This document shows, one piece after another, positions 23,302-37,202 of a stretch of DNA of 48,782 nucleotides. Where the stretch lies: the NCBI GenBank assembly GCA_002050455.1, contig MWZA01000150.1, forward strand, positions 1-48,782. The letters run 5' to 3'. Position numbers and translations under genes: made by a program. Under the pieces are notes generated by a model that had not been told where the DNA came from, did no database searches, and saw nothing but the letters and a program-made list of their open reading frames with translations. This stretch comes from Acidobacteria bacterium 5-1. GTDB lineage: Bacteria; Acidobacteriota; Blastocatellia; Pyrinomonadales; Pyrinomonadaceae. Position 1 is the stretch's first letter; every line of letters begins with the position of its first letter.

Positions 23302-23364
23302 TTGGTTTTAATCGCCCGAATCGTTAAAATCCTTTTGCCAAATAAAATTATAAAAGGTCAACCA

Positions 23365-25608
23365 ATGAAAAAAATTCTAACAATCTGCTTTGCCGTTCTC
23401 GTTTGTTTTACGTTTCAGCTTTTCGCGCAAATTCCGACAAATGTTTTGGTGCAAATCTCCAAAGCCGAAGACGAGCTTCGTCTTGATAAAACTTTGGAAG
23501 ATTTGATGAAAAGCAAGGACGCGAAAATTCGCAAACGCGCCGCGCTCGCGTCGGGAAGAATCGGCAAGGAAGCCGCGATTCCGATGCTGGCGAAACTTCT
23601 CGAAAGCGATTCGGATGCTGCGGTTCGCGCAATGTCGGCGTTTGCGCTCGGTGAAATCGAATCAATCAAAGCGGCGGATACGATTTTGAAGGTTTTGCAA
23701 GACACGAAAAATGCTGACCAAGTTCGCGCCCGTGCCGTCGAAGCGGCGGGAAAAATCGCGGCGGCAAATGCCGAAGACGCGAAAGCGAAAAACCTGGGCG
23801 AAGCGATTTTGGACGCTTTGCAGTTTGAAGAAGAACGCGGCGCAAGGCAAAACCGCGATGTTATTTTGCTCGGAATTACAGCGATTCTACGCGCAAAACC
23901 GGAAGGCGGCGATTTTGTTGCGGCGAAATTTCTGACAAATACCGACGCGCGAATCCGAGCAGACGCGGCAAACACTCTTTCGCGCCTTCGTTCAAAAATC
24001 GCCAACGAAAAACTCCGCGCAATGCTTTTGTCGGACAACGACCCAATCGCCAGAGCAAACGCGGCGCGTGCTCTCGGTGCGGCGGAAGACAAAGACGCTT
24101 TCAATCTTCTGGTCGAATCCGCCGTTTCCGACGAAGATTCGCGCGTCCGCGTTTCAGCGATTCGCAGTTTGGGAAGTTTGAAAGATGCGAAAGCCGCCAA
24201 TAGATTATTGACCCGTGGCGAAAATCTTTTGACCGATTACAAAAAATCAAAATTCGCTAATCCGATTGAGAAAAATGAATTGCTTGAAATTGTAACGGTT
24301 TTAGGTAGAATTTTGCGGAATACTGAAAATGAAAGAGCGATTAGTTTTTTGAAAGATTTTCGTAGATTGAATGGTTATAAATCTTCAGAAATTGAAATTT
24401 CTTATGCACAAATTACACCCGCTTTATACTCACAGTTAGAATCCGAAACAGCCACTTCTTTCGGTTATGTCGTTGACTTAAAGAAAAAGAAATCAATGGC
24501 AATGGCAGATTGGCGTGTTGTTAGCAGTGTGGCACAAGGTTTAGGTGAGGTTGCTGGATTGGAAATTAAAGAGCCAAACAAGGAATTACGGGAAATTGCT
24601 CAGACCATTCTTAAAGGTGAAATTGAAAAAACTGTTGACCCAACTATTGATTTAAATTCGCTTATACCAGCCATACCTGATGTTCTGCGAGCGTATGCAA
24701 AGTTTAAAGCAAATGATTTACCCGAAACTTTGTATGAAAATCTAAGGAACAAAGATATTTTTATTCGCGCCGCAGCCGCCGAACTTTTGGGCGAACAACC
24801 TGCAAATAAAGAAAATATCGAAGCATTGAAAACTGCTTTTGCTAAATCTCTCGAAACCGACAAACAATACAACGACGCGCAGCTTGCGATTCTTTCGGCT
24901 CTCGTGAAGTTAGATAAAAAAGAAGCGATTGATTCGTTAAAGCTCGCGCTCGACGCGTCGAATTTTCTTGTGCGCCGACACGCCGCGCAGTTGATAAAGC
25001 AAAATGATTTGCAGACGAGTTTTCCGAATGCCGATGAAAAAGTCGGAACGGTCAAGCCTTACAATCCGAAGACAGGCACAAAGCTCGGACAAGTTCTGAA
25101 CACTAACGCCGATTACCTTCGCGCCGTTTCGCGCAAAAATGCGAAAGCGATTTTAACGACCGAAAAGGGAACTTTTACAATCGAATTCTTTCCCGAAGAC
25201 GCGCCTCTGACGGTTGATAATTTTATAAAGCTCGCCCGCAAAAATTATTTTAACGGCTTGGCGATTCACCGCGTCGTGCCGAATTTCGTGATGCAGGACG
25301 GCGACCCGCGCGGCGACGGCAACGGCGGTCCGGGCTGGGAAATCCGCGATGAAATCAACGAAATTCCGTATGAGCGCGGAACGGTCGGAATGGCTTTGTC
25401 GGGCAAAGACACGGGCGGCTCGCAGTGGTTTGTCACGCATTCGCCGCAGCCGCATCTGGACGGCGGCTACACGGTTTTCGGTCGAGTGAACGAAACCGAT
25501 ATGAAAATCGTAGATAATCTCGTGCGCGGCGATAAAATTTTAAGCGTAAAGATTATTGAGGGAAATAAACTTCAGAGAACGCAGAGAATGCAAAGGAAAA
25601 GAAATTAA
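23365..25608 (+). CDS. Secreted HEAT-repeat protein fused to C-terminal cyclophilin-type peptidyl-prolyl isomerase
   Basis: Signal peptide MKKILTICFAVLVCFTFQLFAQ; HEAT repeats; cyclophilin ...FFPEDAPLTVDNFIKLARKNYFNGLAIHRVVPNFVMQDGDPRGDGNGGPGWEIRDEIN...GSQWFVTHSPQPHLDGGYTVFGRV. Confidence 0.92.
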   Translation: MKKILTICFAVLVCFTFQLFAQIPTNVLVQISKAEDELRLDKTLEDLMKSKDAKIRKRAALASGRIGKEAAIPMLAKLLESDSDAAVRAMSAFALGEIESIKAADTILKVLQDTKNADQVRARAVEAAGKIAAANAEDAKAKNLGEAILDALQFEEERGARQNRDVILLGITAILRAKPEGGDFVAAKFLTNTDARIRADAANTLSRLRSKIANEKLRAMLLSDNDPIARANAARALGAAEDKDAFNLLVESAVSDEDSRVRVSAIRSLGSLKDAKAANRLLTRGENLLTDYKKSKFANPIEKNELLEIVTVLGRILRNTENERAISFLKDFRRLNGYKSSEIEISYAQITPALYSQLESETATSFGYVVDLKKKKSMAMADWRVVSSVAQGLGEVAGLEIKEPNKELREIAQTILKGEIEKTVDPTIDLNSLIPAIPDVLRAYAKFKANDLPETLYENLRNKDIFIRAAAAELLGEQPANKENIEALKTAFAKSLETDKQYNDAQLAILSALVKLDKKEAIDSLKLALDASNFLVRRHAAQLIKQNDLQTSFPNADEKVGTVKPYNPKTGTKLGQVLNTNADYLRAVSRKNAKAILTTEKGTFTIEFFPEDAPLTVDNFIKLARKNYFNGLAIHRVVPNFVMQDGDPRGDGNGGPGWEIRDEINEIPYERGTVGMALSGKDTGGSQWFVTHSPQPHLDGGYTVFGRVNETDMKIVDNLVRGDKILSVKIIEGNKLQRTQRMQRKRN

Positions 25609-25615
25609 TTTTGAA

Positions 25616-25996
25616 ATGAAAATTACAAATCTTGCAAACCTATCCGAAGCAAATTTTGCCGAATTTAAAAATGAGGTCGCAAACCATAAAACTTTGGGAC
25701 AAGTTTTGACTTGGGCAAGCGCAAAACCGAAAGACGAATTTCTATCTCAAATTGTTTCCGAAGTTATTACGCAAGACGAATTTACGCACGATGTTGTAAT
25801 TCCGTATAAAAATTTGTTTTTGGTTTATGACACAACCTGACTCGGCGCAGTAATGGCAGTTGCCGTTTGGAAATATCAACCGAATGCCGATGAACTTTTA
25901 CAATTTCGATTGCAAAATGGTTGGGAGCCGACTCCTTCAAGTTTGAAAGACGGTGACAAAATTTTGGGACATGCGGCTTGCTCAATTAATTCGTAA
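25616..25996 (+). CDS. Conserved hypothetical protein with one in-frame TGA (candidate selenoprotein, or nonsense mutation)
   Basis: MKITNLANLSEANFAEFKNEVANHKTLGQVLTWASAKPKDEFLSQIVSEVITQDEFTHDVVIPYKNLFLVYDTT[TGA 25838-25840]LGAVMAVAVWKYQPNADELLQFRLQNGWEPTPSSLKDGDKILGHAACSINS*. Confidence 0.6.
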
Positions 25997-26025: not shown

Positions 26026-26562
26026 ATGAAAAAAATTGAAGAATTACAACCGATTGAAAATCGTGCGCGTTTCGGAACAGCGAGAGAAGAACGCAAACAA
26101 ATCGAACTCGAAGAAAGCCTAGAAAATCTATCGCGTTATCTTGATAATTGGATAAAAATTCCGGTTGTCGGCTGGCGATTCGGTCTTGACGCGCTGATTG
26201 GTCTTGTTCCGAATGTCGGCGATATGCTGACTTCGTTTGCGTCATTTTATATTTTGCTGGCTGGCGTGCGTTACGGCGTTCCGAAAATTACGCTTTTGCG
26301 GATGGCTTTTAATATCGGTTTGGATTATATCGTTGGAGTTATTCCATTTATCGGCGACACGTTTGATTTGTTCTGGAAATCGAATAAGCGGAATATGGAT
26401 TTGATTCGTGAACGGGCGACGGGAAAAGATAAAGGCACGACCGGCGATTATCTTTTTGTCGGGTTGATAATTTTAGCTTTGATTGTGATTTTGGTCGGTT
26501 CGATTCTGGTGAGCGTGTATATACTTTGGGAACTTATTTCAAAGATATTTGGAGTTCAATAA
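26026..26562 (+). CDS. DUF4112 domain membrane protein
   Basis: LDNWIKIPVVGWRFGLDALIGLVPNVGDMLTSFASFYILLAGVRYGVPKITLLRMAFNIGLDYIVGVIPFIGDTFD. Confidence 0.9.
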   Translation: MKKIEELQPIENRARFGTAREERKQIELEESLENLSRYLDNWIKIPVVGWRFGLDALIGLVPNVGDMLTSFASFYILLAGVRYGVPKITLLRMAFNIGLDYIVGVIPFIGDTFDLFWKSNKRNMDLIRERATGKDKGTTGDYLFVGLIILALIVILVGSILVSVYILWELISKIFGVQ

Positions 26563-26628: not shown

Positions 26629-27107
26629 TTAAGTATTTGCTGTCATTGCTTTTGGAGCAAACATTTTCTCAAGTGCTGCTGTAATGACTCCGATTCCGAA
26701 TTCGCCCGCCGCACGAGATTTTAGTTTTCCTTCCGCGTCGAACAAATAATAAACCGGCACCCAGCCTTGTTCATTTAAGAATGCGTTTCTTAATTGGTAT
26801 TTGTTATCAACCGCGCAAATGTCGTCAATACAATACTCTTCGATATTTGAGATGACCTTTTCCAAATCCGTATCGGCTTCGTAGCGCGGCAGATGAACCG
26901 CCACCGTTCGCAAGCCTTTATCCTTATATTTATTTTTTAGCTCATTCAGCTGCGGCATTTTATCTTTGCAGATTCCGCAACTCACCACCCAAAAATGAAC
27001 GAGCGTCGGCTGATTTTTACATAATCGTCGGCTGTTTCCTGCAATTCGTTCAGCCATTCGATCGCGCCTTCAAATTTCGGCATCATATCTCCAATTTTCA
27101 ATGGCAT
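26629..27107 (-). pseudogene. Thioredoxin-like/redoxin protein split by a 1-nt shift in an A-run
   Basis: MPLKIGDMMPKFEGAIEWLNELQETADDYVK then, in the other frame, KNQPTLVHFWVVSCGICKDKMPQLNELKNKYKDKGLRTVAVHLPRYE...; shift at 27014-27018. Confidence 0.75.
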
Positions 27108-27150
27108 AAAATTTTCACCTCTTGTATAAATTAAATTTTCTAATTGAATA

Positions 27151-27291
27151 AGCCTTTTATACCTGGAAGTTACGCAGTTGAATGCAGAAACACGCACGTA
27201 AGTATGTTCTGAAACTCTACGTGCGTGTTTCTGCAAATTGAATGCCAACTGCGTAACTCATATATACCGTAAATTCACAGCATAAAAGGCT
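27151..27291. repeat. MITE-like 141-bp palindromic element
   Basis: agccttttat / ataaaaggct ends; agttacgcagttg / caactgcgtaact (13 bp perfect); gcagaaacacgcacgta / tacgtgcgtgtttctgc (17 bp perfect). Confidence 0.8.
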
Positions 27292-27309
27292 CAAATTTTC
27301 GCCAGCCGA

Positions 27310-28860
27310 TTAGATATTTTTGGCGGCTTCGGATTTGTCGGACTTCATTCTGATTCCGTCCGCTACTCTTTGTCCGAATTCGGCATCGCACTGCGTGAAA
27401 TGGTCAATCATTCGATTTTGAATTTCTTCGGTGCATTGCGAAATTGCGCCGACGAGATTGAAAACCAAATCATCGCGTTCCCATTGTTCGATTGTGCGGT
27501 AACGCTCGCCCGCTTGCTTGTAATCGTTTGTTCGCTCAAGTTTTTGGCGCACGAGATTTCCCGAAACGAAAGGCGTGTGGTCTCGTCCCGCTTTCGGTGC
27601 TTCCTTTAATCCGCCGAGGCTTGACGGCTCATAATTGACGTGCGGATTTTCGCCGCCCGTGTCAACGATATAAGTCATTTGACCGTCGCGTTGATTCGTC
27701 CCTACATGCTTTTTCGGCGCGTTTATCGGCAATTGCAGGTAATTTGGTCCGACGCGGTAACGCTGCGTGTCCGAGTAAGACATTGTGCGTCCTTGCAGCA
27801 TTTTGTCGTCGGAAAAATCAAGTCCGTCAACCAGAACGCCTGTTCCAAACGCGGCTTGTTCAACTTCGGCAAAATAATTTTTCGGGTTTCTGTCCAAAAC
27901 CATTCGCCCGACGGGAAGCAGCGGAAATTGGTCTTCGTCCCACGTTTTCGTGTCATCGAGCGGGTCATAATCGAGTTCCGGGTGTTCGTCGTCCGACATA
28001 ATTTGGACGCACAATTCCCATTCCGGGAAATCTCCGCGCTCGATTGCTTCATATAAATCTTGCGTCGCGTGATTAAAATTCGTTGCTTGAATCTCGCTGG
28101 CTTGTTGCTCGGTCAATGATTTGATGCCTTGTTTGGTTTTCCAATGATATTTGACCAAAACGCCAACGCCTTCGGAGTTATACCATTTATAAGTGTTCAC
28201 GCCGAAACCGTCTTGGTGGCGATAATCCTGCGGAATTCCGCGCGGGCTGAACAGCCAAGTGAGCATATGCATCGCTTCGGGCGTTAAGCTCATAAAGTCA
28301 AAAACGCGGCGCACATCCTGCATATTTGTTACCGGGTCGGGTTTTAGCGAGTGAATCACGTCGGGAAATTTGATTGCGTCGCGGATAAAAAACACGGGTA
28401 AATTATTGCCGACTAAATCCCAATTGCCGTCGTCGGTGTAGAATTTCGTCGCAAAACCGCGCGGGTCGCGCAGAGTTTCCGGCGATGTGCCACCGTGAAT
28501 CACGGTCGAAAAGCGCACAAACATCGGCGTTCGTTTGCCTTTTTCCTGAAAGAGTTTGGCGCGTGTGTATTTGGAAACCGGCTGGTCGCCCGCCGTGCCA
28601 TATGCTTCAAAATAACCGTGTGCGCCCGCGCCGCGTGCGTGAACGACTCGTTCGGGAATGCGCTCGCGGTCAAAGTGCGTGATTTTTTCGAGAAACTGAT
28701 AATTTTCAAGCGTCGTCGGTCCACGGTCACCAATCGTGCGCGTGTTCTGATTATCATAAACCGGATGACCTTGCCGATTCGTCAAAATTGGTTGTTCGCC
28801 ATTTTTGTTTTCGGGATTCTCGTTGTTTTCATTTGTTTTTTTGCTGTCGTCTTCAATCAT
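27310..28860 (-). CDS. Catalase (monofunctional heme)
   Basis: [88 protein letters not shown]. Confidence 0.97.
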
Positions 28861-28890
28861 TATTTCTTTTCCTCCTTTTGTGTATTTTGA

Positions 28891-28931
28891 AAAATAAAAG
28901 AGTTCACTAAATTTTGAAACTCAGTGAACTC
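28891..28931 (-). terminator. Rho-independent terminator downstream of peroxiredoxin
   Basis: Minus strand gagttcact...agtgaactc 9-bp stem followed by TTTTATTTTT. Confidence 0.8.
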
Positions 28932-28942
28932 GCCTAAAATAA

Positions 28943-29521
28943 TTAAACCGATAAATTTTGTTGTCCGGGCTGCCATTCAGCCGCGCACAAACCGCCGGTT
29001 TGCAGTGCCTGAATGACGTGCAGCATTTCATCAACCGAGTGCCCGATGTTCAAATCGTGAACGACTGAATAACGCAAAACGCCTTCGGGGTCAATAACGA
29101 AAGAGCCGCGCAGAGCGATTCCTTCGTCTTCAATCAACACGCCGAATTGACGCGCAAGTCTTCCGCCGCTGTCAGCCGCGAGCGGATACTCCAAGCCTGC
29201 GACACCGTTCTGCTCGCGCGGCGTTTTAATCCACGCACGGTGCGAGTGAACCAAATCGGTCGAAATGCCGATAACTTCCGCGCCGATGCCTTCAAATTCT
29301 TCGATTCTATCCGAAAAAGCCGTCAGTTCCGTCGGACAGACAAACGTAAAATCGAGCGGATAGAACATTAAAATCAACCATTTGCCCGCGTAATCGGAAA
29401 GTTTGACGTTTTCCGCCAAAGTTTCCAAATTTTTCGTCGAAGCCATATCGAAATCCGGCGCGGGCTGTCCGATTTTCGCTACGGTCGTTACATTTTCTTT
29501 AGCTAATGCTGCTGCTGTCAT
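28943..29521 (-). CDS. Peroxiredoxin (AhpC/2-Cys type)
   Basis: PAPDFDMAS, FYPLDFTFVCPTELTAFSDR, GVLRYSVVHDLNIGHSVDEMLHVIQALQTGGLCAAEWQPG. Confidence 0.95.
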   Translation of the reverse strand: MTAAALAKENVTTVAKIGQPAPDFDMASTKNLETLAENVKLSDYAGKWLILMFYPLDFTFVCPTELTAFSDRIEEFEGIGAEVIGISTDLVHSHRAWIKTPREQNGVAGLEYPLAADSGGRLARQFGVLIEDEGIALRGSFVIDPEGVLRYSVVHDLNIGHSVDEMLHVIQALQTGGLCAAEWQPGQQNLSV

Positions 29522-29601
29522 ATATAAATTATTCCTCGTCTGTATAAATTTTTTATTTATTGCAGATTTCAAACTCTGATTTCCCAATTTGGAATTTGAA
29601 A

Positions 29602-30003
29602 TCATTCACTACATTCAGGACATAATCCGCGCAAAGTTAATTCGATTGATTCGAGTTTGAATTTTGAAAACTTCGTCGCCAATTTAACAATTTCCGCAGG
29701 CAGTTCGATTTCCATATCAACCAGCTTTCCGCAATTTGTGCAAATGGCGTGGTCGTGCCGCGAAGTCAAAGCATCGAACCGGCTTGCGCCATTGCCGAAA
29801 CTGATTTCGCCAATCAAACCCGTTTCCTTCAAATAGCGCAGAGAATTATAGACGGTCGCAAACGAAATGCCCGGCAAAAGCTGTTTGGCTTTGTCGAAGA
29901 CTTCATTCGCCGTCAAATGCGTGTCCTTGTCGCGGATGACTTGCAAAACAACTTCGCGTTGTTTCGTCAAGCCTAAATCTTTGATGTTTTCTTTACTGCT
30001 CAT
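29602..30003 (-). CDS. Fur-family transcriptional regulator, PerR-like
   Basis: LTKQREVVLQVIRDKDTHLTANEVFDKAKQLLPGISFATVYNSLRYLKETGLI, HDHAICTNCGKLVD, GLCPEC. Confidence 0.93.
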   Translation of the reverse strand: MSSKENIKDLGLTKQREVVLQVIRDKDTHLTANEVFDKAKQLLPGISFATVYNSLRYLKETGLIGEISFGNGASRFDALTSRHDHAICTNCGKLVDMEIELPAEIVKLATKFSKFKLESIELTLRGLCPECSE

Positions 30004-35696: not shown

Positions 35697-35770
35697 TTAG
35701 CCGCGAATTACCCGAATAGCATGAATTATTTTATTTTTTTATTCATGCTATTCGGGTAATTCGCGGCTAA
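35697..35770. repeat. Perfect 30-bp inverted repeat (terminator-like) between serC and selA, overlapping the selA 3' end
   Basis: ttagccgcgaattacccgaatagcatgaat (35697-35726) / attcatgctattcgggtaattcgcggctaa (35741-35770). Confidence 0.95.
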
Positions 35771-37202
35771 TCTTCGTTAAAATTTCCAAAAGTTCAGCTT
35801 CTTCCGTTTCCGAAATTGTTCGCAAATCAATCAAAACTTTATCTCCCAGAATTCGCGTAATGACCGGCGGTTTCGAAAATCTTAAACTTTGCTCCAGACG
35901 GCTGACCGACATTTTTGAATGTTTTAACGCAAGAAGCGTTGTTACAGGCTGTATCATTGGCGCAGAACCGCCGCCGATGACCGAATTCCCTTCCGTAACT
36001 CCAAATTGCAAAGCGTGGTTTTCGCCAAGTTTTTCGCGCAATTTTTGGGCAAATTGCAAAGTTCGTTGTCCGAGTTCGGCATTTGTCCTCGAAAGCATTT
36101 TTAAAACGGGAATTTCCTGCAAAACTGTTCCTTTGCGATACGCCTCAAGCGTTGCTTCCAGAGCGGCATAAATCAATTTATCCACTCGCAAAGCGCGGTA
36201 AAGAGGATGTTTTCTCAGTTTCTCAATCACTTTGCGCCGTCCGACAACCAAGCCCGACTGCACGCCGCCGAGAAGTTTGTCGCCGCTAAAAGTTACGACA
36301 TCCGCGCCCGCCGCAATTGAGTGGCTGATAATCGGCTCATCTGTCAAACCGTATGCGCTTAAATCCAGCAATGCGCCCGAACCTGCGTCTTCGTAAAGCA
36401 AAATATCGTTTCGGTGCGCCAGAGTGGAAAGTGCGGCAATGTCAGGCGAGGCTGTAAAACCGACGATTCTGTAATTTGACGGATGAACTTTTAGGATTAA
36501 ACGAGTGTTTTCGCTAATCGCACGTTCATAATCGGAAATTCGCGTGCGATTGGTCGCGCCGACTTCCCGCAAAATCGCGCCCGATTGCGTCATCACGTCG
36601 GGAATGCGAAAATCGCCGCCGATTTCGACGAGTTCGCCGCGCGAAATAATCGCTTCGCCGCCGTTTGCCAGCGCGGTTAAAACTAAAAGGCAAGCCGCCG
36701 CGCAGTTGTTGACAATCAACGCGCTTTCCGCGCCCGTCAGCTCCGCCAGAAGATTTTCGGCATTTGCGCCGCGCGTTCCGCGTTTGCCGGTTTCGAGATT
36801 GTATTCCAGATTGCAGTAACGCGCGGCTGCTTCAAACATCGCTTTGCTTGCCTTTTCCGACAACGGCGCGCGTCCTAAATTAGTGTGAATAATTACGCCG
36901 GTTGCGTTGATAACTCGCTGCAGAGATGTGTTTTGCTCACTTTGCCAAGCGTTTTGAAGCCGCTTTTCCGCTTCCAATAAGAATTTCTCCCGCGAAAAAT
37001 TTTTTGTATCTATTAAATCTTGAGAAAGTCTTTCCTGAATTTCCTGTCGCAAAGAATCCGTTGCGATGCGAGCTAAAATCGCCAGATGTTTCGCGCCGAC
37101 TTTCTGTAAAAGTCTGCTTGCAGTTTCCGAATGCAAAAGCACATCAATTGAAGGCAAAAGGCGCAAAATTTTAGAATTGGTTGGCGTTTCCTGATTTTCC
37201 AT
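35748..37202 (-). CDS. selA: L-seryl-tRNA(Sec) selenium transferase
   Basis: RVINATGVIIHTNLGRAPLSEKA, YCNLEYNLETGKRGTRG, FSGDKLLGGVQSGLVVGRRKVIEKLRKHPLYRALRVDKL. Confidence 0.95.
   Translation of the reverse strand: MENQETPTNSKILRLLPSIDVLLHSETASRLLQKVGAKHLAILARIATDSLRQEIQERLSQDLIDTKNFSREKFLLEAEKRLQNAWQSEQNTSLQRVINATGVIIHTNLGRAPLSEKASKAMFEAAARYCNLEYNLETGKRGTRGANAENLLAELTGAESALIVNNCAAACLLVLTALANGGEAIISRGELVEIGGDFRIPDVMTQSGAILREVGATNRTRISDYERAISENTRLILKVHPSNYRIVGFTASPDIAALSTLAHRNDILLYEDAGSGALLDLSAYGLTDEPIISHSIAAGADVVTFSGDKLLGGVQSGLVVGRRKVIEKLRKHPLYRALRVDKLIYAALEATLEAYRKGTVLQEIPVLKMLSRTNAELGQRTLQFAQKLREKLGENHALQFGVTEGNSVIGGGSAPMIQPVTTLLALKHSKMSVSRLEQSLRFSKPPVITRILGDKVLIDLRTISETEEAELLEILTKISRELPE

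Follow-up and report, generated by a model that had tools for sequence, protein, structure and literature searches.

Known bacterial selenoproteins have in common a single in-frame UGA codon for selenocysteine (Sec), homologues with cysteine (Cys), a selenocysteine insertion sequence (SECIS) within 16-37 nucleotides (nt), and the genes selA, selB and selD. The bacterial SECIS (bSECIS), best known from E. coli fdhF, is described as having a G in the first two positions of a loop that lies 16-37 nt from the UGA. A catalogue of 2026 contains 119 selenoprotein families or subfamilies (Table 1 of PMC13188914). One current detection method depends on Sec homologues that are already known or on Cys homologues in the top matches, and the deep-Sep authors noted that selenoproteins lacking Cys homologues may go undetected (PMC12013277).

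We analysed a stretch of 48,782 nt (the window) from Acidobacteria bacterium 5-1, contig MWZA01000150.1 of assembly GCA_002050455.1, and found in it a gene whose UGA codon very probably encodes Sec, which would make it a member of a new selenoprotein family. The features concerned are:

25616..25996, + strand: predicted selenoprotein gene, 126 codons including the TGA codon; ATG at 25616, TAA at 25994-25996
25838..25840, + strand: UGA codon, very probably Sec75; 68 genes have TGA in the aligned column, 14 have Cys and 1 has Phe
25852..25867, + strand: SECIS-type hairpin AATGGC-AGTT-GCCGTT, from the fold of this gene with family covariation and controls

The TGA at 25838-25840 is the single interruption of the frame 25616-25996, whose product reads MKITNLANLS...VYDTT-U-LGAVMAVAVW...GHAACSINS. 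The original prediction for this locus was an undescribed selenoprotein of about 126 aa. Its frame coordinates, TGA position and 126-codon length all agreed with the sequence on re-reading, and the homologues, the SECIS and the machinery described below back it.

The family resembles the known bacterial selenoproteins in the properties named above. It differs from them in that the catalogue lists no family with a comparable T-U-(L/N/H)-G motif (PMC13188914) and in that no family model matched: Pfam and NCBIfam release 20 gave no credible match for any member, and the PDB sequences gave none for the family protein. Selenoproteins of the peroxiredoxin, thioredoxin and AhpD types are likewise small with a possible Sec and resolving Cys, but no sequence or fold similarity to them was found and there is no CxxU or UxxC motif here. 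A literature search, limited in its coverage of preprints and subscription papers that could still describe the family, returned no description of it. On this comparative evidence we regard the members as real selenoproteins that are missing from the catalogues consulted. To specialists the family would be new and credible but would bring no new principle; it has an unrecognised fold, it occurs in at least three phyla, and gene finders would cut its product at the UGA. The near-absence of close Cys homologues may be the reason why it went undetected, and such a cause suggests that other missed selenoprotein families remain.

Homologues and the TGA column

Among 116 genomes of the same genus, family, class and phylum, 28 encode the protein, and all matches but one have one internal TGA. 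It stands in the same column of the alignment, in the motif YDTT-U-LGAV. A profile search of the phylum recovered the family in 15 of 396 genomes, and Myxococcota and one Gemmatimonadota metagenome-assembled genome (MAG) joined the holders through a scan of GTDB contigs. Of 379 genomes in the phylum of the Myxococcales MAG G474, 32 were strong TGA holders and another was a partial one. Altogether TGA was found in exactly this column in 68 distinct genes of Acidobacteriota, Myxococcota and the Gemmatimonadota MAG, and the single-contig genome G169 shares this TGA. Plasmid records gave no homologue.

Coding conservation extends on both sides of the TGA across the 68 genes. In ten close pairs the nonsynonymous rate (dN) after the TGA is well below the synonymous rate (dS), indicating purifying selection. 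Homologues of both halves were aligned, which was the check proposed with the original prediction, and the column was found to contain TGA or Cys, one Phe and no Trp. The close homologue L089 (genome G138) has Cys there. The Phe belongs to a paralogue, L018 (genome G113), which keeps the C-terminal Cys; a second copy in the same genome, L029, has retained the TGA.

Sec/Cys exchange is the classical signature of selenoproteins, and it was also found at greater distance. A sister family of 13 sequences (L100, with its gene at 1495-1935, L163-L173 and L177) has Cys in all its sequences at the aligned position, within a TNCNGG motif, and hhalign paired this Cys with the Sec residue (P=2.9e-11). 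Its sequence pattern is GEFHHDVV...TNCNGGVKE...WRCP...DPC...DARSE...GGGW with three invariant Cys, and no Pfam or NCBIfam model matches it. Both families share the aligned core QxEFxHDVV...(T/N)-[C/U]-xG...P..L...R and, in the predicted models, a strand, a turn at the key residue and a strand. The sister family differs in having Cys instead of Sec, no hairpin, and a C-terminus that is longer and contains two more invariant Cys. It occurs mostly in Myxococcota without selB.

The hairpin downstream of the UGA

In the window gene, nt 12-17 after the TGA (AATGGC, 25852-25857) pair with nt 22-27 (GCCGTT, 25862-25867) and leave the loop AGTT, exactly where the original prediction had placed the hairpin. 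A spacer of 17 nt separates the UGA from the apical loop, which begins at nt 18 and has the form N1-GU-N2, with G at the second position. The Rfam gathering search of the window gave no match.

A bacterial-SECIS-like hairpin follows the UGA in 68 of 68 TGA genes and in 0 of 15 non-TGA genes (Cys and Phe homologues). Every one of the 68 has a G in the first two loop positions at a distance of 16-37 nt. The usual sequences are (G)ACGGC-GGTC-GCCGT(C) or ACGGC-AGTT-GCCGT, and most members thus have a GGTC loop, apparently like that of fdhF. Stem variants such as GAGC/GCTC, GGGC/GCCC, CAGC/GCTG and CAACGC/GCGTTG were also seen. In a set of 36 genes, 90% of cells pair, and two-sided changes occur in 36 cells against a shuffled mean of 12.7. 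The covariation score is 0.415 against 0.167 in shuffles, and it is below 0.16 in every slid register. The loop-closing pair N1-N2 (positions 18 and 21, each the third base of a codon) is G-C in 53 genes, A-T in 12 and mixed in 0 (Fisher p=2.5e-13); the best tree has seven A-T/G-C switches, at least two of them forced by well-supported branches. The second proposed check, on the SECIS, came out with a hairpin that is conserved and covarying in the family and missing from the non-TGA homologues.

Synonymous recoding, with the amino acids fixed and the codons drawn from each gene's own usage, did not reproduce this result. Shuffles gene by gene were weak (p<=0.05 in 11 of 36), therefore a fixed-register test of the whole family was used. 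The canonical register with closing pair alone was observed in 58 genes against 9.3 +/- 2.8 expected. With either register allowed, the hairpin was observed in 67 of 67 genes against 30.7 +/- 3.9 expected (maximum 44 in 2,000 trials), this combined figure being partly post hoc because the second register was noticed in the same data before counting.

Fifty-nine of the TGA genes have the canonical register, nine have a register shifted by 6 nt (L026, L027, L029, L097, L140, L146, L147, L155 and L161), and none has neither. The shifted hairpin lies two codons further downstream with a 23 nt spacer, typically as GGTCTC-CGTGT-GGGACC, and its loop is CGTGT, CGGGT or GGTCT. The 17 nt spacer, close to the lower limit of the 16-37 nt range, and this minority with a replacement hairpin set the family apart from the general bSECIS description. 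The two registers offer a naturally occurring test of the distance over which a SECIS can shift.

Selenocysteine machinery and alternative readings of the UGA

The window itself contains one gene of the Sec pathway:

35748..37202, - strand: selA, L-seryl-tRNA(Sec) selenium transferase (Pfam PF03841, E=6.7e-142)

The Pfam match bears out the original assignment of SelA to these positions, and the source genome also has selB and selD. Its SelD (L055, G000:C101) is itself a selenoprotein, with an in-frame UGA at the known Sec site (GAG[U]VSK). The proposed check of the machinery was thereby answered for selB and selD. A tRNA-Sec above the Rfam cut-off was found in 26 of 27 other holder genomes, and when ARAGORN was run on eight loci, the seven above the cut-off were all called tRNA-SeC(tca). 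Within the same class selB is nearly universal (102 of 116 genomes) and co-occurrence is uninformative there, so the association was tested in Myxococcota. In that phylum 29 of 32 TGA holders have a selB. By comparison, it occurs in 180 of 334 genomes that lack the family (54%, p=2e-5) and in 1 of 12 that carry the Cys sister family (p=5e-7).

A conserved UGA, Sec/Cys exchange, a SECIS and the association with selB thus all speak for Sec at position 75. The UGA would be decoded by SelB and tRNA-Sec, directed by the short hairpin 17 nt downstream (23 nt in the subset).

Several points weigh against this reading. The case for Sec75 was made by comparison of sequences, and the hairpin counts, pair statistics and co-occurrence were computed ignoring shared ancestry. 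The hairpin of the window gene has about -5.8 kcal/mol alone and -6.5 kcal/mol for the 42-nt fold, and the published bSECIS model uses a minimum free energy cut-off of -7.5 kcal/mol (PMC13188914). Most homologues reach this value on the 42-nt fold and some do not, and 5% of the synonymous recodings of the window gene fold as well as the native sequence. Taken alone this hairpin is marginal, and the case was therefore made by comparison across the family, where the hairpin exceeds chance by a wide margin. No selB was detected in 3 of 32 Myxococcota holders and 4 of 28 same-class holders, possibly through assembly gaps. In the source assembly, a 79%-complete MAG, selC was not found, and a search with the selC of a relative also found nothing. 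All tRNA-Sec matches in this assembly were below the Rfam cut-off, and the eight best were other tRNAs according to ARAGORN (Ser, Leu, Tyr, His, Trp, Glu).

Other explanations of the UGA were considered together. The source assembly is incomplete and fragmented and the upstream half alone looks like an ordinary frame, as would be expected if the TGA were a nonsense mutation or a sequencing error of TGG in a pseudogene or artefact frame. We give this a negligible chance, because the 68 TGA genes come from independent assemblies including a single-contig genome, purifying selection acts downstream of the TGA, and the column contains TGA 68, Cys 14, Phe 1 and Trp 0; this conserved column rules out the Trp mutation or error. 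The conservation of both halves could also suit two translationally coupled short genes, the second of them starting after the UGA. The Cys homologues (L089 and the sister family) and the Phe homologue L018 are single chains through this point, and the predicted fold places residue 75 in a turn of one beta-sheet; the two-gene reading was rejected on the homologue alignment and is hardly credible. A near-cognate or suppressor tRNA, for example, might insert one of the ordinary amino acids at the UGA, or the UGA might be a regulated stop giving short and long products; such readings could draw on the missing selC, the Phe of L018 and the fact that the case for Sec comes from sequences. This too is very improbable: the replacement is otherwise only Cys, the single Phe is in a paralogue whose genome keeps a TGA copy, the hairpin tracks the TGA, and the holders carry selB and tRNA-Sec. 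Insertion of Sec therefore remains by far the preferred reading.

Predicted structure, gene neighbourhood and possible function

The AlphaFold model, with Cys in place of Sec, has a predicted local distance difference test score (pLDDT) of 89.5 and consists of two helices, four beta-strands and one helix. Residue 75 lies in the turn that joins strand 67-74 to strand 78-85. In the model of the sister family (pLDDT 94) the elements follow in a similar order, and the Cys occupies the equivalent turn. Both models were compared with the folds in the PDB, and the Sec-family model also with viral models; only noise came back, and for the Sec-family model no match reached E<=0.001. A thioredoxin fold and a CxxC-like motif were looked for in the Sec-family protein and model and were not found. 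Conserved residues in the family are D54-E55 and H58-D59, together with a near-invariant C-terminal Cys122, and this pattern suggests an active site built on a selenol, perhaps with a resolving Cys.

The surroundings of the gene in the window are as follows:

23302..25608, + strand: HEAT-repeat/cyclophilin peptidyl-prolyl isomerase (Pfam PF00160, PF13646), ending 7 nt before the ATG
26026..26562, + strand: DUF4112 gene (Pfam PF13430), directly downstream
26629..30003, - strand: peroxide-defence genes by Pfam (thioredoxin-like, catalase, AhpC-type peroxiredoxin, Fur/PerR-family regulator), context only

Among 27 loci examined, at least one peroxide-defence gene lies within about 5.5 kb in five, all of Acidobacteriota. 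We consider a redox, perhaps anti-oxidant, role of the Sec75 protein likely; of all steps in the argument it is the weakest. Its activity would be selenol-based redox chemistry (peroxide or disulfide reduction) in oxidative-stress defence, with Cys122 as a possible resolving partner of Sec75. A role in peroxide defence in particular is a tentative proposal. Against the redox part stand the lack of any fold or family match and the loose support from the neighbourhood. The protein could instead be a selenoprotein whose Sec75 is non-redox, serving in metal binding or in selenium binding or storage. The lack of a known redox fold would fit this, as would the conserved acidic residues and His that precede Sec in the sequence and the three invariant Cys of the sister family. 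We think it rather unlikely, considering that the majority of selenoproteins have oxidoreductase homologues or a redox motif (PMC13188914) and that peroxide-defence genes are close by in several loci. We might speculate on a new structural class of selenoenzyme, outside thioredoxin and the other known selenoprotein folds, which would detoxify peroxides or related oxidants through a Sec75-Cys122 pair, near PerR and peroxiredoxin genes in some soil Acidobacteriota, and in which the SECIS moved two codons in part of the family with the function kept; as a whole, this proposal is doubtful.

The HEAT-cyclophilin gene was confirmed to end at 25608, 7 nt upstream. It is directly upstream of the selenoprotein gene in 8 of the 27 loci, and this kept gene order supports the co-transcription that had been predicted, so that it is probably an operon partner. 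The DUF4112 gene, the downstream neighbour in 10 of the 27 loci, is a possible partner. Several relatives have the arrangement of the window, in which the selenoprotein gene is flanked by these two. In L114, L117, L123 and L128 there are two further conserved genes upstream (in L114, L117 and L128, upstream of the HEAT-cyclophilin gene); the start of one resembles what we take to be a CdaA-type diadenylate cyclase, and the other presumably resembles a YbbR protein.
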